Of a stretch of DNA of 64,000 nt, positions 1 to 49,700 are shown piece after piece. The stretch spans positions 11,567,501-11,631,500 of the forward strand of contig NC_058501.1 in NCBI RefSeq assembly GCF_020382885.2, written 5' to 3'. Position 1 is the stretch's first letter. Every line of letters begins with the position of its first letter. A program made the position numbers and the translations under genes. The notes under the pieces are model-generated. The model saw only the letters and a program-made list of their open reading frames with translations. It did no database searches and was not told where the DNA came from. The stretch is from Scatophagus argus. Lineage: Eukaryota > Chordata > Actinopteri > Scatophagidae.

Positions 1-198
1 AAAGGCAAAAACGGTCTTTGGGAAGAATTTATTTGATCCTTCCTCAGAGTTTTTAGTTTGGCCTATTTCCCATAACACGGAGCGGGAAGGATTCATGACC
101 TGTACTGCAGCCAACCGCCAGAAGGCGATCGATGCGTTTTAGCTTAACTTTTGGGGGTTGTTATGTCATTTGTCTTGGTCCAATTTTCTCATACTCAC

Positions 199-1111
199 AC
201 TCCAAAGTTATCTCTAACTTCACACTCTGTGAAAAGCCTCTGGGTGTGATGTGGACAGACCAGGGCCCAGTCCTGTTCTGCATCTGGTTTGAGTCGTCAC
301 TCTGACTGGGACACCTGGCAGCCTCGACATTCACCTAGAGAAAAGACACTTTAGTGTTATAAGTCGTATTTGCTAATGTCCTGTACAGGATATCAGTCTC
401 AATTTTGCTGACCAGTACAACTGCAGGGTTTCCAGTCACAATGTTGCTGAATGTGATGTTGACTCCCACTGGCACAGGGCTGGTGTCCACAGTCAGCCCT
501 GTCATAGGCTGCTCTGTTGGCATGGTGATAGTGAGAGGGAAGGACTGGCTCACGGCTGGCCTCAGATGCAGGGCGAACTCCTGGGGCTGGAGGAACAGAG
601 CCTTTGCATTCACTGGCTCTGTGCTGCAGAAGTTCATTTGTCACCGCCAAGAAGAACGTTACATTGGAAGTCATTTTGGTCTTGAACAAATAATGACACT
701 GTAATCTGGCACCAGTGTCATGTCAGTAGGAGTAATTTGTTGCATGTCTGTGTTGCACTCCCTGTTAGTGTTTTGATTTGATAAATACTGTTTTATCTGA
801 CAGGCTTGACTAGTACAAAAAAAGTTTTATAGCGGATCTTTAAACCAGGATACTCACCTGCTGTCATTCTTGACAACCTGCATCCCACCCTGAGGGTTAT
901 ACATATATTCTTCAAGACAGCCTGCTCTCCGCAATCTCTTCAAGGTATGACAGCGGATGTTAGAGAGAGGGGCGCTGCACCAGGCACACTCGGGGCCAGA
1001 CTGGATGCACTCGTCACAGCTGGAGGCAGTTGTGAGACACGTTTGTTCCTTGGCTCGGCTGGGACACGCAGGAAGCAGCAGCAGGCAGAGACAGAGCAGT
1101 TTCACGGCCAT
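199..1111 (-). CDS. Integrin beta-like gene, 5' part, lacking the beta-I domain (partial at left edge)
   Basis: Three coding exons are visible on the minus strand: 1111-858, 623-413 and 334-199, with consistent phases (2, 0, 1). The start at 1111 follows a TGCAG acceptor, so a 5'UTR exon probably lies upstream. The upstream Met at 1153 would put 14 residues before a clean signal peptide (MAVKLLCLCLLLLPACPSRA) and was not chosen. Exon 1 then gives a typical integrin PSI domain (SSCDECIQSGPECAWCS, later a Cys followed by a NPQGG turn). Exon 2 has the opening strand of the hybrid domain (LQPQEFALHLRP) but runs straight into a hybrid C-terminal strand (FSNIVTGNPAVVL). Exon 3 has the segment that normally follows the hybrid domain, with the I-P-GF pattern (HITPRGFSQSVKLEITLEC). 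The gap between exons 2 and 3 is 78 bp, so the roughly 240-residue ligand-binding beta-I domain cannot be encoded. The gene continues left of the window. The exon 2 donor (GTCAGC) is weak. Confidence 0.72.
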
Positions 1112-2103
1112 CCTGCAGTTACAATAAAGCTTTGGGGTGATGGTCCTCAACATTGAGCCATTTTTAATAAAATAAAGGATACATAGGCAGACTTTTAGTA
1201 ACTGTCTAAATTGAATCTTTTTTACTTTTTTGTCTTTTTTTTCCTCTTTCTTTTTAAATCGCTTGTCTCTTGTAACTCCTGTTTAAATGATGATAACCTT
1301 TCACTTTAATGAGTCCAAGACATGAAATTAAAAATAGCATAATCATAAGCAGTCCCAGAGTCAGGCCTGTTTTCCTTATGAAATGAGATTTTGTATGTAC
1401 TTGTTAATTTAGGAATTTAGTAATGTTGCATATAAATACTCAAAATATAACTATGTATCTCTGGCCTGACAGGGACAGAAACCATAGAAACTATGTTTCT
1501 GTTTAAAATTGAAAAGAAAAATAAACCTACCATGACCACTAGAAAGACAAACAACCAAACTTCAGCTGGACTGATGCAACAAGTAGCCTAATATGCTACT
1601 GCTACTGTGCTTATTTCTATATCTTTTTTAACAGCATGCTTCGTGTTTGTCTGATTCAGTAATTGATTATGTGGTAAATAAACTAAAACACAAATACAAT
1701 GCAATACTAGTACATTACCTGAGGTATTGGAAGCTTTCTGTGCTGTGTCTTGGGAGCTGTCAACCTCTACAACACTCTGCAACACACTGACAGGCTTCAG
1801 TCATGTATTGGCTGGATGTGAATTCTGCATGACACCCAGGGTGCAGAAATCTGATCACACAGTTCTGATTGGTGTGGCTGTTTGGGGTGTCTATCTGTGA
1901 CCTCAGAAAACAAACATGCACATGTTCTTTTTCTTTAGTCAGGTCTCTCACTGCAAATATTTACAGATCAGAGTCAGTTATTGAGACCACAGTCATTCTC
2001 TTGTAGTAATGCATGCATGCAATTTGTATCCAATGTGGGGTTCAGAGTGCGTGTTTCGGTGTATTTTTGAAACAGCTAACTTCCTCTGTCTGTTTTTTCT
2101 CAG
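1112..2103. other. Intergenic or intronic stretch between the integrin-like gene and mrs2
   Basis: No coding exon was found on either strand. The expected upstream mrs2 exons (mitochondrial presequence and the region leading to the first conserved core strand) were searched for by eye and not seen. Only short uncharacterised frames and T-rich tracts are present. Confidence 0.6.
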
Positions 2104-5100
2104 TTTTTGAAAGCCATCGTGACCCCGCAGTCCCTTTTGGTGTTGGACTTTCGTGGTCTTGGATTGGAGCGTTGGTTGGTGCTGGACCTGGCCCCTCAGC
2201 TAGCATCCCAGACACACTCTCTGCCCTTTGAGTTCAGAGCACTAGAGGCCATACTGCAGCACAAGGTGAGACAGATTTGAGAAACACTTTTTGAGTTCAC
2301 AGCACTAGGGGCCATACTGCAGCCCAACTGCAGAGGAATTAGAGAAACACTCTGTGACTGTGGTTTTAAGCATTTAACCTAGGTAAACCTCTGTTGTCAC
2401 ATAAAATAAAGTGTCTTCATGTATGTGTGTCACTAGGTAAACACTCTACAAGCTCGACTGAATGATGTTGAACCAGTAATACTGGACACGTTGGAATCCC
2501 TAGTAGATCCTAAAATCCTGTCTGCTGATAGAAGTAAATTACATATACTACTGCAGACCAGCAAAAGGTAAAACACACAACCATATACACCGACGTAGTT
2601 TGTATGTTCTTTTAAATGAGGATGGAGAGCATCAGTATTGCAATACTTTGCTGTGTTGATATGAGGAACTGGGTCAGAATCTCTGGGTATGGACTGGTTT
2701 TCAGCAGTCAATTAAAAAAGTCCTTCACCTTTCATAATTCCTTTTAGGAAGCATCAATAATCACATGCTAAAGGCTTATAGTCACAAATCTTGTTTTGTC
2801 CCTCTTGTTTCTTGTGCCTCTGTCAGCTTATCAGAGTTGGAGACGGATGTAAAAGTTTTTAAGGATTCCTTGCTGAAGATTTTGGATGAGGACGAGCTCA
2901 TTGAAGAACTCTGTCTGACCAAGTGGACAGACCCAAGAGTTTTGTATGCTACACATGCACTCCCATATGCTTACATGAATGCTAAAAGCAGTTCTCTTAA
3001 AAGTTTCTTTAGAGCTTACAGTCAGTGCCATGTTAAGTACAGATCTGCATGATTTTGTTGTGACTTCCTATACATAGCTTGTCACTAAAATGCTGTTTAA
3101 ACATCTTTGAATCACAAAAGATGACATGCATCTGAACATTAGCTAAATCATTAGCTTCATAATAGCCTAATGTTAAATGGCGGAATATATGAGCAACGTT
3201 GCTCCTTTGTGACAGTCACATTGCGATAATAATCACAGTTAGTGAGCCAGCAGCATTTCACTTTGTACTTTTCTCTTCCACATGTGTAAGCGAGAAGCAT
3301 TCAATAGCATTCATATATATTAGTCGGCCATGTTAACATTCGTTGACACTCACTTCCTGTATTATGTGTTGGATTGTACTTTCATGTTGTGCCTTTTGCA
3401 TACATGTTGGTTCATTTGGTGTGACACTTCTGGACCACCGTATCAAACAGAACATGAGGGTGAAAGAAAGGGGGAACTTAAATCAAATCAAATCAAATCT
3501 CACAGACGTGCTCCTACCTTTGAATGTGTGGTATTCCTTAATTTAAATCAAGGAATTACATACAGCTAATTTGAGCTTTTAAGGGAGTTCTGTTAATCTG
3601 ACATGGTAAAATCCTGCATGCAAACCTCTCAGAAGAAAAGATTGACAGATTTAGGATTGCACCATGAAAATGTTCTTGCATGAAACCTATTGATTTTGGG
3701 ATATTTCAGATTTAATTTCAGTGTGACATTTATTGTCTGGCTGCTTAAGACCAGGATACTGAAAGCCAGAATTCTTTCACGTATTTTTAGGTATTAAAAT
3801 GGTCAAGATTTGTCCTATTTGTTCTGAAGAAAAATATAGTTGTGCTTCCCCTTTTTATGATTGCAAGAAAAAAAAAAGTTTTCTATCAAAATGATAAATT
3901 GTTAATTGCTGAAAGTTCTGCTAACTCACAGGGCTTTTTTAAAGCAGCATATTTTATTGTGTGTATAATAATATGTCTGTCTGTCTGTCTGTGTTCCTAG
4001 TGAGGAGAGCAGCTTGGGTATTGACCACGCTGAAGAGATGGAACTGTTATTGGAGAATTACTATATGCAGGTAAGGCTACTTGTCTAATTAACTAACAAA
4101 TATAAAAATGTTCCTCTTTCTCTTATTAATATGGGGCAATTAAAACATTGTGAGATAAGCTCCTAATAACTAATGAATGCTCAACAGTGAATTAATGTAC
4201 ATTTATATTGACTGACTCTGCAGAAGCAGAATTCTAGCTGGAGGACATTTTCACACTAGTCTGTACATCAAGATCTGAAAATAGTATTGGATCTCCTAAT
4301 TTTTCTTGTTTATACTTCTTTGTACCTTTTTATTGTGGTGGTGAACATGTCCACTTTCCCCTCTTTATTTTTAATATGAAAAGCACTGAAACACACATCA
4401 AATGTCATCTCTCCTGTTGAGTGTTCATACAGTCACTGTGAACTGGTCCATACAGGCTGAAGAGCTGGCCAACAAGACCAGAGAGCTGAAAGGCCTGATA
4501 GATGACTCTGAGAGTGTCATCTTTATCAATCTGGACAGGTACACAAACACACACACGCACACACTGGGTAAACACTGGGTATGTGTATGCGGCAGATTAT
4601 AAGTGAAGTTGTCATTTTAAAATTTAACATTCATTCATCCAATTTGCATTGTATGAAGAATATTGGACCGTTCAGAATGTCTATTCATAAAGGTCATGTT
4701 TTCTTGTCATTTCCAGGAATTTGTTTGAAGCTGGTATAATAATATTGTAACTGACTCAAGAAAACAAAAAGATTCAGATGAGATCCCATCCTAATGTATT
4801 TTCAGTATGAGTGATCGGGGACAAAGTGCACCATCCTCACTTTGTGCAGTTTATTTGAAGCTGATTACAGCAAGGAGAAAAATAGTGAACCTATCCTTCA
4901 AGCCGCACATAAAAGACGTATTTTTAGTCCTGTTGAAACCAAATGACTTGGCTCTACAAGTCCCTCTCTCTTTCTCTCTTTTTTTCCCAGCCATCGAAAC
5001 GTGATGATGCGCCTGAACCTGCAGCTGACAATGGGTTCCTTCTCGCTGACCTTATTTGGTCTGATTGGAGTGGCCTTTGGAATGAATCTGACATCAACCT

Positions 5101-5974
5101 TCGAAGAGGTGAGACAGCTTCCTGCTGAAAACTCAATGGCATCTAGAGTTTGAACAGGTGCTGTTTACAACTTGGTTTAGTAGAAATAAAACCTTTCTTA
5201 TAACAATCAGATGAGTCAGATATGAAAATATTCCTGTCTACACACCGTTGTTGTCAGCTGCCGATGCCCGACCTCATCAAAGCTGCTGTCTCCTCTGTAC
5301 TGTATCCCCTGTCAACAAACTGGCCTCCACTGGTCGATTCTGCTACATCCTAATGACCATTTTTCATTTTTGACATTTTGCAAAAAGTAGATGAATTGAT
5401 TTAATTAAAAAAACGGTTTATGCATAAATCAATAATAAAAGTGACTTTCAGAGTTGTTTAATTTATTTGAAATAAGTTTTGTTATGTACATATTGTACCT
5501 TTTGTATGTTTACAAATACATATATTTCTAGATTTGCCTGCTTGTGTTTCTCACCAGGACCCTCGTGTTTTCTGGCTGGTGACAGGCTTCATGTTCTTGG
5601 GCAGTGGGCTGATATGGAGACGACTGTTGTCGTTTTTGGGTCGACATCTACAGCCTTCAGTTCCCCCACCAGTAATACAAACACACACAAAAACACATAC
5701 ATTGGCCCCTTACCATTTTTTTAATTTTTCTTCAGATGCTTAGTATTCCTTTACTATGGTACTCTGTCCAGTTAAATATAATTATTCCATCTCCGGTGCT
5801 TCTCATCCCAAATTGCTGATAGAAGTGATTAAACATAATTTTATTTAACTTTGCCGTTTGAAAGGCTGCTTAAAGATTAAGTCCCAGCTCTCATTTCTCT
5901 TCTTTGTTATACAGATTCCTCCAGTTTGGAAGAGAAATCTGAGATCATCAGACATCAAAGCAGGAGTCAGATGA
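2104..5974 (+). CDS. mrs2: Magnesium transporter MRS2, mitochondrial (5' exons missing)
   Basis: This encodes the inner-membrane Mg2+ channel that imports Mg2+ into the mitochondrial matrix as a pentamer (CorA/Mrs2/Alr1 family). Eight exons join in phase: 2104-2265, 2437-2567, 2827-2943, 4001-4070, 4456-4538, 4991-5108, 5558-5671 and 5915-5974, ending at a TGA, for about 284 residues. Conserved core blocks are present (DPKILSADRSKLHILLQ, SELETDVKVFKDSLLKILDE, GIDHAEEMELLLENYY). Transmembrane helix 1 ends in the diagnostic GMN motif (FGLIGVAFGMN) and helix 2 reads VFWLVTGFMFLGSGLIWRR. The first exon starts at a block that in the human protein lies well inside the chain, so about 130 N-terminal residues, including the mitochondrial targeting sequence, are not in the window. 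The C-terminal tail is shorter than human. A likely poly(A) signal AATAAA lies near 6446. Identification is secure; completeness is not. Confidence 0.9.
2227..2352. repeat. 63 bp tandem duplication spanning an mrs2 exon end and its donor
   Basis: Positions 2227-2289 and 2290-2352 are two adjacent 63 bp copies with few mismatches. The first copy contains the last 39 bases of an mrs2 exon and its GTGAG donor. The second lies in the intron and has lost the donor (CACAAGGTGAG became CCCAACTGCAG), so only the upstream copy should be spliced. Confidence 0.85.
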
Positions 5975-23485: not shown

Positions 23486-26400
23486 ATGGCTCAGAAAGGT
23501 GGACAGCCCTTCCTCCTGTCCCTCTTCGTGTTTCTCTCCACGCTATCATCTCTGCATGACTGTCACCCTCACCCTGCTCGATACATGAATTCGATGTTTG
23601 CAGCAAGGACCATCTCCTATCATACTGCAGGGAAAGGTAACTCAAATCCTTGTACCTTCAGAAAATGTAGTAAAGGCCTATGTATGGACATCAGGGTGTG
23701 ACTGGGTGTCAATGAACATACCAGTCCAGTTACTGCCCATTGATACTTAAGATAGACTCAGTCATTAATCACAGTTTACTTACTGGTCACTCATATTGTG
23801 TAAGATAGTCACTGTATGTTTATATTGCTTCCTTTATCTATTGTGCATATGATTATTTGTGGCAGATCTTTGTAGAGGTCTTGAATTCTGTGCGTTTAAA
23901 AATATATAATTGCAGTATATTCGCTCATCTATTTAAGTTTCAAAGATACTCCTCTTGGTGCTTGACTCAAAAACTGCTCGAATGGTTTAAAGAGAACTTA
24001 ATTTAGTTTTTGTGTGCTTCTGTGTGTCTCAGACATAGCTGCAGAGGTAGCAGGCTACACTGATGTGGCCAAACAGATTATTGATTTGGCTGTGTCTGGC
24101 GCTGCCCAGAACCGCTCTTACAAACGGCTGACTGACTTCACCGACACCATAGGGAACCGTGTCAGTGGCTCACCCAACCTGGAGATGGCCATCAAATACA
24201 TGTACGGTGCTATGACACAGGATGGGTTGGATGTACATCTGGGTGAGTATACCTTGTTATCTATCTCAGTGGATGCAGGATGTGAATAAGTGTGCAATGA
24301 GAATAACTTGCTGTCATACATTTCACACATTGAGGAATCACTTTAAACAAAGCCTTGTCCTCTGCTAAATGGAACTGCACTTTAGTTTCACCTCTTTCTT
24401 CCTCAGAGCCAGTCAAAATCCCACACTGGGTGAGAGGGAAGGAAAGTGCAGAAATGATTTTGCCTAGGGCCAAAAGTCTGGCTATATTGGGACTGGGTAG
24501 CAGTGTGGGGACACCACCTGAAGGTAAAGACTATATTGAATATAATCATGACTGTCATCCTCTTTCCTTTTACATCTCACTGCCTCACTCTTATCTTTCC
24601 AGGCATCGAGGCAGAAGTGTTGGTTGTAAAGTCTTTTGAGGAACTGAAGTATAGAGCCAGTGAGGCTGTAGGGAGGATCGTGGTCTTTAACCAGCCATTC
24701 ATCAGCTACGGGGAGACTGTGGCTTACCGTGCTTATGGCGCCTCTCAGGCAGCCAGAGTGGGAGCTGTGGCCACACTCATTCGATCTATTACGCCATTTT
24801 CTATTAACAGGTATTTATCTATATTTCTAATTAGATGGGACGTCTATGAACATTACAGTTAAGTCTTGCTGAAGGGCCTATCGGTCTGATATTTGATCCT
24901 GAACTTCTCAGGTGTAATAAAGGTTTAATCTGAAGATTCACAGGTCTCATTCTTTGTGCCCTCCTCTTAAGTCCCCATACAGGTTGGCAGGACTACCAAG
25001 ATGGAGTGAGGTGCATCCCTACAGCCTGTATCACTGTTGAGGACGCTGAGCTGATGTGGCGTATGGCACAGAGGGGACAGAAGATTGTGGTCAGACTTAT
25101 AATGGGAGCAAAGACTCTGCCAGATGCCGACTCCTTCAACACAGTGGCTGAGATAAAAGGCTGGCAACACCCTGAGCAGGTATGACACCTACCTGTCTGA
25201 AGTTTTTATTTATGTATCTTATCATCTTCCTTTTTCCAGTCTTTTAATGGCAGGGGAAATCTTTGTGGGTAGGCTTTCCAATGAACTCTGTAGGAATTAG
25301 ATGTTCTGAAGGAAGGCTCTATCTACATTCTTGTCTCTCTCTTAATTAGTCTTTCTGTCTTTTCCTCAATTTGGTGGGCTGAGAAAGGAGTGGTGTAGCC
25401 TCTTTTTCCCAGCTACAGATATTCCCACAGCTGTTTAGTCTGGTCTGTTTAGTTTGCCAGTGTGTGTGTGTGTGTGTGTGTGTGAGTGAGTGTGAGTGAT
25501 CCAGTCTTTCCAGAAAGTGCTGAGCCTCAGTTGAAAATGAGGATTTCAGTTTTGGTCAGAGTAAATGGCTTTCTATGGAAGCACATGCCTTGTGTAAACA
25601 AACTATTCGGCTTAATTATGTTTTTTTGGATGTGTTTGAAAAAGTCTAGTTTTTCACTGCAATTAGAAACAGCTTCTTAGGAAAATTCCTGAGAAATGCC
25701 TCAGCATTAGTGTTCTATTTTCAATAAGTCCCCAAACTCTGACCCTATGAAGGTACTTAGAGAAATTACAACAATCCAAAGCTTTTTTTTTCCGTTTTTT
25801 TAACTGCATTTTTTTCTATTCTATTGTACAGTCCTGTCAAAATTAACATATCCTTTTATGGTATGTGTAGAGTTGTGATTTGTGAATACCTTAATGCAAT
25901 CATGCATGAAACTACTAAGTCAGTAGGGATAGACAGCGTAGCTTAGTAGGGACAGTAACCTACAAATAGGATAAAATAATCTGATTCCAGAATACATTGT
26001 GTGAATAGGGTTATTGTGGGTATTGTGTGTCATGCATCATAGACAGGCTGTTTGTCTGTTGTGGGATGAACACATAGGCGAACACATGTGCCACGTTACC
26101 AGTTTTGTTTTTCACTATTAGACTTCTCAGTCATAGGAAAAAATGGCAAAATATGCCCTGCAGTGTGTCAGAAAGCTATCACTGCACAAAGCAAACACAT
26201 TACATGACCAGACTTCCAACTTTGCAGTTCAGTATCACACAATGTCACACACAGTTCCTTGGTATGCTTGTGGATAAGGACACAGGCATGTTTAGCAGGT
26301 AGAACCTGATGAGCAGATAAGGTGTTGCTGCACAAACCTTGCATGCAGGTGCCCTGTTTGCAGGAAAAGGAGTAAGATGCCCCTGAATAAATCCCACTAT

Positions 26401-41400: not shown

Positions 41401-44400
41401 TGTTGACTAAATAAACCAATGAAGGAAAAAGGAATGACAGCGGTGTGTGCCTAACATATGATTTCATATGTAGAGAATACACAACGCTGGATTGTTTTTG
41501 TCTGGTACACACAGCTAGAATGTTTATTTATTTTCTGTTCTGGCAGTTGATGGCACACAGGGCAAGTCAGCATAAAACTTAAAAGGGTTTACGTACACTT
41601 ACATGTGTGTTTATAAAAAAAATCCTTGCTGCATGTTAAATATCCTGAATATTTGACAAATATTCTCAGAAAAAAGTACACCTTAAAAAGGCATGTAGCA
41701 AACACACATAACATGACATGACATTTTCAACTTGGCTGTTAGCATTATTATCATTCATATACTTACTTTTCTTTCATCTGCACTTTTGCCACGTACCGTT
41801 GGTACTGATCCCTGTTTTAATGACAGTTTCTGGGCCAGTCCTCTCTTGTGCTGACCCAGGTTGAAGAAGCAGTCGGAGGCAAATTGGTTGGCACACACAA
41901 ACAGGTTTTTAGAGATTGTTGCTGGGATGTTCCCATCAAAAATTAAGTTAATCCACAGAACTCCGATGTCCTCTAAAGGCTGGAAGGCAATGCAGTGATT
42001 TGTGTTGGTCGAAGCAGCCGACAACAGAACAGTTCCCGTGTTTAGCTCTGACCTTTGCTGTAATGCCAGCGGCTCAGGTGCTTGCGAGAAAAACAACAAC
42101 AACAAAACAGCGAATATGTGCAAAGGTAGATCTCAATCCGTGGGTGGAGATATCCACGTGAGTTGGGATTATTCAAATATGCCTACTCCATACGTAGAGA
42201 CGGGAGTAAAACCTAAACGTTGAATCCCGTATTTTCTGATCTAGGCAGCCCACTCAGAAGTCACTGGGTTGTCATATTTCACATTTTGTGAGTTGGTGGG
42301 CCCTCCAAATACACAAATATATGAGCACAAGAAAAAAGTGAGTTTTTATATTAAGTACCCTTTAAATGTCTAATTAAGTTTGTTATTCCAAGCGTTTACG
42401 GTTCACTTTGGCCTTAGATGTACACTACAAATTGCGGACTTTCTGTCTTTGTCACTCACAGTGAAGCATCTCCACGTTAAACACGTCAGTGGGCCGCTGT
42501 GCGTCGTCCTCTTCTTCTTTGTCTTCTTGGAGGTTGGCATCCACCTTATTGGTACATTACCGCCACCGTTTGCTCCGAAGTGTGGGTCAGACAGTAGATT
42601 CACAATCTAAAAAAAATCTCTGTACTTATCTCTATTAACTAGTATCCTAAAACCCAGCTCCTGCCTAATGTTCATATCCTGTGAAAAGGCCCTGTTTCCC
42701 TTAAAAAACCTAATAGTACCCTATCCCGTGTGAGCTCACCCTTATGAAGCACATCCTGCTTTGATAGTCTGCCTCAAAGTGGTTTGGACACATACATGTA
42801 GATGTTGGTCGTAATGGAAACTCAGAAATGTGCAGAATATTTCCCTAATTCGCGGCCAACCAGTGGATAAGTGCGGTGTTTGCTTTTTCCACAATAGAAA
42901 TAATGGTTTATTAAAGCCAGGGTTTTCGTATTTGACATTTCCTCGGGCTAAACACTCACCTGTGTCACCACTTGGACAGGTGTTGGGACGGCATCGGGAT
43001 TTAACAGAAGCTGCTTCTTGAATCCCATTTCCACCTCTGCATAGTTGGAGAAACACTCGCGAGTGAAGTGGAGGTTGCACACGTAAACAGAAGCGGAAGG
43101 CATGTCGATCCGCCCCAAAGCATTCAGCCAGCGGTGTGCCATCTCTCTGTTGGACGGCAAAGAGTGCAAACCCTCCGTGCTCTTGCACTCGGGATAAGAG
43201 CACTTCCGTCCCATGCTTGACAGCTGACTGTCGGGCAGTCTACGGGCTGATAGCTAACCAAGCTAAAAACAAACCAACTTCAACTTCTTTCTTTCAAAAT
43301 AAATGGCAGTTGGCAAGTCGTTTTCTAACTTACCGCCACCTGTGGACCGGAGGGTAGTGTTAGGTGGTCTTTGCGCCGTGCTACGTGGCCTTCATTAGAA
43401 GATGGAGTTTGCTAAGTTGTTAATAGCTCAGAAGCTGTTGCGGTTTAATCTGTTGTTAAAATATTTTTAAATAATTGTTTTACCTTTAAATGTGGTCCGA
43501 TGTCCCTCACTATCCATTGTCTTTATAATTGTAGATCAACGTGGAAGCACTGATATGGTAAATATTTGTCCATATCCCTGTGTTTATAAGACTTACAACC
43601 TGTAACACTGGCGTTTACACTTTACACACTGAATGTGGTGTCTGAGGAAAATGTGTGAATATGGAGAATGACAACTTCATATGGCTTCATTTTTCACAGC
43701 TTTTTACACACATAAACATACATATACATATATATATTACTAAACAATCTAAACACATTTTCAAGCTTAGGACCTTTAATGTAATAAAAAAGCTAAATTG
43801 TTAAAATGATTACTGTTTCTGATTACATGAACAAACCAAAGCAGGCCCAGCAGATAAGCAAGTTGAAACAGAAAGGTCACTGCAATGAGAGGTGAAATTT
43901 AAACTGTGACCAGTTAGAAGTTTTATTCCTTCACTCTTCACAGTGTCTGAGTATTTCATGGCTGTAGTTCTTTTGCACATGTTAGGGTCAGACCTGATCA
44001 ACAGCTTTTTCCTGATTCACGGTCAAAATACACTGAACCGTTCAGACCCACGTTCCCCTTCTGTAAAAACGTTCAGCTTCAACAGAAACATCCCTGGAGG
44101 ATCAAACAAGGTGCAGTAACGGTGTTTCTTTTTTGGTGTAACATTTTGTGTCCAGGATTGTCTAAACAGTTCACTCTTCAACTTGTGATACTTAGTGGAA
44201 AAGTTGGTATTTCATTTCTCTTTTTCTTCATCGCTCCTGCAGGTGCCAGCCTCCATGTGGCAGACAGTCGATACTTTTGGTTCCACCACAGTGAAGGTGA
44301 TACCATGACGGTTCAGGACCCTCAGGACATGAACCTCTGCTCAGCACTGTGGGCCGTGGTTGCTTATGTCGTGGCAGACCTGCAGGACATGCTGCCCAGG

Positions 44401-46748: not shown

Positions 46749-49700
46749 TCATGTAGCCACAGGCCTTCTGGAGTTGAAGACCTTAATGCCATTTTGCATT
46801 GAAGATCGAGCATATTTAGTCAGGAGGGCTCCAGTGGTCTGTTTCTCTCCACACAGGTCCCTGAATGAGAAGAGGGAGGACGTATTACACATTATAATAT
46901 GAAAGAAAATTATAAGAAAAAAATTATAAAATTACATATGTATATATGCTGACTGACTTTTTATACTAAATATCTCCTTTTTCAAGTACGTTTTACTGCA
47001 TATTTATTGTGTATATATTATATTTTTTACTTTTTTTCTTTTAAAGAATATTGTCAGTAATTCCTGCTGTGCTTGAGCCATTGTACCAAAATTTTGTTTG
47101 CGATGAAAATCCAAATGACAAATAAAGAAAGTCTAAGTCTAAGTCGAAGTCTAAGTCCTAATCTAAAAAATCACTTTTTAATTTCTGCACAAGACAAAAT
47201 AACATAACTTGATTTTATGATACGTTTCTAAATTAACTTTAATGACACTTACTGTATGTAAGGCGTGATGTCATCTTCTGTCCATTTCTCTCTGAGCGTG
47301 AAGAGGTGGTTGAATCGCTCCAGCGTGTCCTCTGGGAGATCCTCCACCCGCAAAAGGCAAATGGTCTCTGGATGGGAGGTGCGGTCCACCAGGGCGACGC
47401 TCTGGAAGATTTACAACACGGTCAGCACTGTGGTCAGTTTCTCAAGAGAAGTCAGTAGGTAGTTAGTAGTCTCCTGGCAGACGTCTCTGTCGGATTTATG
47501 CACTTGGAGTATATGCAAGGAAAAATATTTCCCAGATATTATAGGATAGAGAGCTTCTTGAAAACTCAGATACATGAAACTGCATCATAAAAGATGAAGA
47601 CTGAGATGAGATTATCACAGTGATCTTGGGGTTCCAAGCCTTTTTAATGCCATCTGACCTTTACAAAGAAAACAGAGACCAGCTGAACCATTTTATAACC
47701 AGATAGTAGAGGCAGCATTTTTGAGGAAGCTGCACTTTGGAGAGGTTGTCTCAATTATTCTGGCTGTGGGAATTATTTTATTTTATTTTATTCTTCAAGT
47801 CAGAAAATTTCCATCTCTTCTATATCTAAAAAAATTAAGGGGAAAACCTGTGTCCAAAATGCACGACTTGTCCAATAAATGCAACACGGAGAAGAAAGAA
47901 AACCCAGACTAACCCTTAGCTGGTCCAGTCTTGTGCTCATGCCCTCTGGGATGCTCTGCTGCCACACTTCCTGAAACTCTTTTAGATTGAACTTGACAGC
48001 GTTCTGCAGGAGCAGCAGTGCCGTTCCCCGACACACTTTGTCCTCATTTAGTGCATAAAAAACTTGGTCTAAATAGAGGAAGGAAGACACAGACATGTCA
48101 GTACTGTGTCATCGTGCAGATTTTGTAGGATTCTACTACCAGTTCAAGGTTTGAGTGTTCATAGATTGTTCGTCTTTACCGTTTTCAGTATAGCGTTTCC
48201 CATAGCAGTTCAAACAGTGCTCGATCATCTCTCTGTGAAAGAGAGAAGAGTGGTTGGTCAAAAGAAGCTCAGAGAGTCAGTATAACCTCTTTTCTTTGGT
48301 TAGTTTGTCATCTCCTAAGCATCAACTAACTTGCAACTAAAAATATTTAGTGTTTCCAGTTGCATGAGTGTGAGGATCAGAGACGACTTAACTTACTTGG
48401 GTTCCAGTGGAGCTAACTCTTCCAGACAAGTCTGAAGGGGAACCTTGTTGAAGGACCACGACTCAGAGTCCACAAGCTGAGTCACGTGGCCGAGCAGCTT
48501 CATCTCATAGTCAAAGTCCAGCATGCGCCAGTAGCCTTAAAGACAACAACAAAGAAAAAGTATAGCGATTGAGACTGCATTTACATAAGCATCTTCCCTG
48601 CACTATACCTCACAGGAGCACTGCACTGACCCTGGTTCTTAACCTATTTACATACCCAACTTTAACTACTAATGTTCATGTAGTTAATATTCAAATTGTG
48701 TCACTGTTTACCATCTATCAGACAGGCATGGACTGTCTCCAAGTGGGTCTTTGTCTCTTCTTCACTAGCCTGGATCCTCTCCAACAGATCCTGCATTGTG
48801 TACTGGTAACAGAGGAGCACAGGAAACCGCTTATGGACAGATACCATTAACATTCAAAAGAGAGCAACACTTAAGAGTGAAAGTCAGTCTAAAAAGTCTA
48901 GTCAGCTAAACTTGGACTTGTGATTTAAAAGCCATTTACTTCAGATAGAGTGGGGACAAACCAGGTACAGATGTTGACACAGGAGCCCCACACCTCACCG
49001 ATGTATAAAATAATCAGTTACAACTGCACTGAAACTTCACCACAGAAGTCATATGTAATAACCAGATGGCTTTTGTATGTGTTTTTTTTCTTGACACTAG
49101 GCATACAGCATTTAAGGTAAAAATGGACGGCGGTGAGATCACTTTTACCAAGGAAACCGCTATCACTCCTCTGCCTGGTGAATAATCTACATGGTGACAG
49201 ACATCATAATCAACGTGTGCTTTGAAAGGTTAAAGACTTGACATGCATGTCGTGTACCTATATACACAGGGCTACAGGATATTATAATTAATTATTACGC
49301 AATAAAATATGTTTTTATTTTACCCTGTTCTCCATATTCTCCTCCTGCCCTCCTAAAGCGGGTCCTTCATAAGGATTCTCCATTAAAAGCTTCTTCAGCT
49401 TCTTCAGTTTAGGGCGTTGCTTCCTCAGTTCCCAGTAGCTGTTGCAAAATCCCCAGATCTACAACAGAAGCAGGACATTGTTAGTGCATGTGGATCTTAA
49501 ATCCAATTAACTGCTAGATGCATATGAACCCAGCAGACTGTGGCTGTTTATGTGTGTGTGTCATTTCCATACCTGAGCATGCACCACATGAGCGCAGTCC
49601 TGGCTGTTAGTTAGCTGGTCTGGTGTTCGGCATTCTGGCACAAACAGCAGCAGGTTGGATGTGTCGGCTATTTTTAGATCATACGTCTTGTCACCACTAC

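Follow-up and report, generated by a model that had tools for sequence, protein, structure and literature searches.

A putative integrin beta-derived PSI-hybrid gene without a beta-I domain in the genome of Scatophagus argus

Integrin beta chains are treated as molecules built around the beta-I domain, which carries ligand binding and the main interface with the alpha subunit. Can a gene of this family be built without that domain? The question is raised by a small locus at one end of a 64,000-nucleotide stretch of the Scatophagus argus genome (571 Mb), referred to here as the window, which corresponds to C9:11567501-11631500 (C9 being the contig of the window). From the letters alone, a first-pass annotation had proposed there an integrin beta gene whose exons run from the PSI domain through both ends of the hybrid domain with the beta-I domain missing.

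The gene lies on the reverse strand (1111-161) and is composed of three exons, which, after removal of two GT...AG introns, give a spliced frame that is open for 212 codons. Exon 1 (858..1111) contains the start codon, a signal peptide (residues 1-20, read by eye) and the whole PSI domain, with seven cysteines and the motifs CDEC and CAWC. It is followed by intron 1 (624..857), which is 234 bp long with the donor GTGAGT and the acceptor CTGCAG. Exon 2 (413..623) encodes the N-terminal half of the hybrid domain, a short linker replacing the beta-I domain and the start of the C-terminal hybrid half; then come intron 2 (335..412, 78 bp, donor GTCAGC, acceptor CTCTAG) and exon 3 (161..334), which encodes the end of the hybrid domain and then CEYEKIGPRQMT, with the stop codon TAA at 163-161. 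On the same strand, an AATAAA signal (28..33) is located 128 nt past the TAA, and T-rich sequence follows it. The exon series first proposed (PSI, hybrid start, hybrid end), with only 78 bp between exons 2 and 3, is borne out by this open frame. Of the further statement that frames are open and splice sites good, the first half stands and the sites are usable, but the donor of intron 2, GTCAGC, is below consensus strength. The mature chain of the encoded protein has nine cysteines and three N-glycosylation sequons.

The identity of the PSI domain can be read from single-sequence searches, for which a provisional 197-residue translation was used as the query; its incorrect join of exons 1 and 2 falls outside the PSI match. 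The Pfam family PSI_integrin (PF17205) matches residues 24-65 with an E-value of 1.4e-9, and in a phmmer search against the PDB the best ten chains are all integrin beta-2 or beta-1 (E 1.3e-9 to 8e-9), among them the integrin beta-2 chain 5e6v at 1.3e-9. Moreover, the seven cysteines align with those of integrin beta paralogues in the same genome, so that the N-terminal PSI domain of an integrin beta chain is present. For the hybrid domain, a profile was made from the PSI-hybrid parts of five integrin betas of the same genome (L013, L014, L015, L016 and L021), with the beta-I domain omitted. Against it, the window protein's hybrid part reaches 30.5 bits (top of 2000 shuffles, 9.3), and the C-terminal hybrid half alone 19.5 bits (top of 2000 shuffles, 8.7); these shuffle controls exclude a chance resemblance. 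Both hybrid halves of an integrin beta chain are found, and in the right order. When the hybrid part was searched as a single sequence against the PDB, no integrin appeared in the 10 matches with E up to 10, and the hybrid assignment is based on the paralogue profile. The single-sequence AlphaFold model of the window protein is poor (mean pLDDT 44.2), and in a fold search with this model none of the 138 matches reached E <= 0.001.

Alignment with the paralogues shows where the domain is missing. In the paralogues, the hybrid strand ends in EDYPID, then the beta-I domain is inserted, and the hybrid domain picks up again at SLSSE; the window protein instead has TEQPMTG passing straight into LTVDTS in the middle of exon 2 (479..517, reverse strand), and TEQPMTG-LTVDTS is aligned to EDYPID-SLSSE. 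The absence of the beta-I domain and its direct fusion point within exon 2 had both been claimed in the first-pass annotation; the alignment upholds them and corrects only the exact point, which is TEQPMTG/LTVDTS at 517-479, slightly before FSNIVTG. The insertion of beta-I into the hybrid domain, a defining feature of integrin beta subunits, is thus absent from the window gene. Since the junction lies inside one exon with no intron there, splice forms cannot supply the domain, and beta-I exons hidden in the introns are ruled out, because these measure only 234 and 78 bp. A genome-wide search with PF00362 (beta-I), which scores only the best candidates, lists 40 matches, all of them outside C9; on C9, the 5 kb beside the window is N. 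As far as its sequence can be read, the gene is an integrin beta relative in which beta-I is missing at the domain boundary. An origin by exon skipping is unlikely: a single exon of L015 holds hybrid and beta-I residues together, so skipping cannot yield the junction found in the window.

From which integrin beta gene is the locus derived? Ten integrin beta loci of the genome were considered, for which the names beta1, beta2, beta3, beta5, beta6 and beta7 are used here as labels. The five named above served for the profile and the intron counts, L019 and L020 entered the tree only, and L017, L018 and L022 were left out altogether. The hybrid-end intron is followed, in all five paralogues and in the window gene alike, by an exon that starts at the same aligned V (I in L014), and the acceptor AG immediately precedes this V/I codon; the common position of intron 2 points to shared ancestry with the integrin betas. 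Other introns differ. The intron inside the PSI domain (4/4 paralogues, L014 being without its first PSI exon in the set) and the intron after LRPG/LRSG (5/5) are absent from the window gene, and its intron 1, after KNDS, has no counterpart in any of the five, where the stretch from RCD to LRPG/LRSG is unbroken. Over the aligned PSI-hybrid part, identity to the five paralogues is 21-34%. In an eight-sequence tree the window gene groups with the beta7-like L016; its branch measures 1.49 substitutions per site, and the support is only 42, so that the class assignment is a likely guess. Among the 10 matches of a genome search that scores only the best candidates, three are the exons of the gene itself, and the next (E 0.006, on C18) lies inside the L016 gene. 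Direct repeats of at least 14, which would be signs of a retrocopy, were not found in window positions 1-2200. Taken from these alignments, the gene is probably a derived integrin beta paralogue of the beta1/beta7 class. As it derives from integrin betas but fails one of their defining features, it is termed here a beta-derived PSI-hybrid protein gene and not an integrin beta subunit gene.

The next question is whether the gene is alive. It could be a recently dead or dying paralogue, whose open frame is a leftover and from which no useful protein is made; the long branch (1.49), the loss of several domains and the weak donor of intron 2 would all agree with this. In neutral runs with substitutions only, starting from the gene's own sequence, the frame stayed open in 278/500 at 95% residual identity and in 168/500 at 90%, so a gene dead for a short time would still look open; the number falls to 66/500 at 80%, 8/500 at 60% and 1/500 at 40%, and drift lasting since the split from the paralogues would almost never have kept the frame intact. 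Since the frame is open at 21-34% identity to the paralogues, selection would have maintained it over most of its history. In addition, the GC content at third positions is 0.615 in the frame, which is coding-like, whereas the introns have 0.38 and 0.359, and the seven PSI cysteines are retained. At such identity, the open frame, the third-position GC and the kept cysteines argue for long-lasting selection, and a recent death is considered rather unlikely.

The 3′ end of the gene differs from that first proposed. In the first-pass annotation, exon 3 was ended at 199, with the string GTGAGT (198-193) as a donor and with EGF, transmembrane and tail exons expected to the left. In L014, L015 and L016, the Cys-Glu-Cys codons also read TGT GAG TG, in an exon frame that continues past CxCxC; TGTGAGTG stands within the exon that reads on in 3/5 paralogues, and in L013 and L021 (2/5) other letters occur and there is no GTGAGT string. 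In the window, TGT GAG TAT GAG encodes Cys-Glu-Tyr-Glu, the next residues are KIGPRQMT, and TAA follows at 163-161. The GTGAGT at about 199 is therefore probably coding and not a donor, to judge from the aligned codons, and 161 is the most likely end of the gene. From the paralogue codons, the frame continuing to TAA and the AATAAA signal, we take the protein to end just after the hybrid domain; the gene probably has no EGF, membrane or tail exons. Neither the exon end at 199 nor the exons expected to the left are retained in our gene model.

It could still be argued that the gene continues to the left, GTGAGT being a real donor and the EGF repeats and a membrane anchor lying in sequence that cannot be read, so that the product would be a membrane-bound stalk without beta-I. 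The string does agree with the donor consensus, the odd number of cysteines would be settled by a cysteine of EGF1, and the region C9:11562501-11567500, directly adjoining the window, is exactly 5000 N with round coordinates, while the 9.5 kb on the other side of the window is free of N. Nevertheless, the same letters are coding in three of the five paralogues, and the frame goes on as CEYE, similar to CECE, to a stop with AATAAA behind it. Beyond the N run, 15 kb of the 20 kb to the left can be read, and among the frames there with at least four cysteines, judged by eye, none resembled an EGF exon. With the window frame stopping at 161, no EGF, beta-tail, transmembrane or tail part is found in the window gene or in the readable left flank, the nearest 5 kb of which is N. 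The same 5 kb may, moreover, be needed by another gene, mrs2. A leftward continuation is accordingly regarded as rather improbable.

The mrs2 exons (mitochondrial magnesium channel) lie on the forward strand at 2104..5180, with a PDB match to MRS2 homolog residues 139-277 (E 4.7e-51); one exon is presumed to be mrs2 by its GMN motif, and a Pfam search on this exon gave no match. Earlier mrs2 exons were looked for by their motifs; the one match obtained was unrelated, and in window positions 1-2080 nothing was found. The first exons of mrs2 may lie in the N stretch, and, if so, the integrin-like gene would stand antisense inside an mrs2 intron. At 2215-2360 on the forward strand, an mrs2 exon ends in TTTGAGTTCAGAGCACTAGAGGCCATACTGCAG, and a diverged repeat of this 3′ end comes next in the intron. 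Elsewhere in the window, Pfam searches of ten frames identified a THAP domain (42951-43253, reverse strand, E 1.2e-11) and a match to sister chromatid cohesion protein Dcc1 (47803-48108, reverse strand, E 2.6e-10); the remaining eight frames had no match. The reading of the frame at 24458 as carboxypeptidase Q is unsupported, with no match in the PDB or Pfam. About 18.3-18.6 kb to the left of the window, a cysteine-rich, Ly6/uPAR-like frame on the reverse strand (L011) has three Pfam matches, all below the cut-offs.

An assembly artefact, in which collapse or a chimeric join would have removed the beta-I exons, is highly improbable: the 5 kb run of N does adjoin the locus, but the junction lies within one exon whose flanking residues have diverged from the paralogues examined, the intron places differ from theirs, and no near-identical second copy is present among the 10 best genome matches.

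The closest known relatives are the integrin betas of the beta1/beta7 class (L013, L015 and L016), with which the gene has in common the PSI cysteines, the order of the hybrid halves and the intron position in the hybrid domain. It differs from them in having no beta-I domain, in that EGF repeats, beta-tail, membrane span and tail are not found, in lacking the PSI and LRPG introns and in having one extra intron, at 31-34% identity. A similar junction is seen in human beta-2 structures of the PDB, 5e6v and 2p26, which we take to be man-made beta-I-less constructs. In both, the PSI domain is kept and the hybrid halves are connected, through a few residues, where beta-I would otherwise be inserted, and the aligned sequences run RRAKGYSRVFLDHN and RRAKLSSRVFLDHN; 5e6v at least continues past CECRC, whereas the window gene stops after the hybrid domain. 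Another member of the wider family, ITGBL1 (integrin beta-like 1), is a secreted integrin-beta-derived protein with EGF repeats only, and the part kept there is complementary to the PSI and hybrid domains kept in the window protein.

Natural truncations of beta chains have been described as well. According to one report (PMC1538996), zebrafish has three beta1 paralogues (beta1tr-1 to -3) without membrane span and tail, which were found as transcripts and are possibly secreted; they have a beta-I domain with a changed ADMIDAS site and stop four residues after EGF-4. Its authors propose PSI, hybrid and EGF-1 as a region of key functional importance (PMC1538996). In the zebrafish genes, beta-I (also called A) and four EGF repeats are still present (PMC1538996). 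The window gene, with no beta-I and a stop after the hybrid domain, does not belong to this group of truncated beta1 genes. In sponge and man, truncated beta splice forms ending in the hybrid domain are described, which are probably non-functional and come from alternative splicing of full-length genes (PMC1538996); the window gene is itself built without beta-I. Searches of open-licence literature, several of them narrow, turned up no account of a natural integrin beta gene that lacks beta-I.

Our preferred reading, held at about even confidence and drawn from sequence comparison, is that the locus is a derived beta paralogue without beta-I, EGF repeats, membrane span and tail, which would encode a secreted, glycosylated PSI-hybrid protein. 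In this scheme an ancestral integrin beta would have lost these four parts, the gene would be translated and its product secreted, and the joined hybrid halves may fold as one Ig-like domain, like the beta-I-less beta-2 constructs. As ligand binding and the main alpha interface reside in beta-I, neither pairing with an alpha subunit nor metal-dependent ligand binding would be expected. As a soluble leg fragment, the protein might instead occupy the partners of PSI-hybrid surfaces and serve as a decoy. What the first-pass annotation proposed, a decoy or a secreted partner, is in this sense a fair guess.

Alternatively, the protein may act through redox chemistry at the CXXC motifs of its PSI domain. 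As described in PMC12383024, PSI has two CXXC motifs and a thiol isomerase activity of PSI has been reported; in a crystal structure, the CXXC cysteines are not reduced, and PSI is unlike thioredoxin (PMC12383024). In beta3, C13 of PSI bonds C435 of EGF1; that source counts eight PSI cysteines, yet the bonds named in it use seven (PMC12383024). In the window protein CDEC and CAWC are retained, there is no EGF1, and by alignment Tyr stands at the C435 equivalent; by this comparison, the cysteine equivalent to C13 appears to have lost its partner. Nine cysteines cannot all pair within one molecule, and the prediction is either an unpaired thiol or a dimer held by a disulfide. These features would suit a secreted PSI domain with redox activity, or a decoy that takes up the partners of PSI-hybrid surfaces.

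A bolder proposal, put forward tentatively and thought improbable as a whole, is that this is a conserved, expressed fish gene for a free-standing PSI-hybrid protein, a natural counterpart of the beta-I-less constructs, that works without an alpha subunit, metal or EGF stalk, in which the unpaired CXXC cysteine would rearrange the disulfides of integrins or blood proteins, or which would act as a decoy. If the preferred reading is true, the PSI and hybrid domains of an integrin beta chain can be retained for another purpose, and the gene would make it possible to test directly whether the PSI domain has a biochemical function of its own, thiol exchange, an idea that is disputed.
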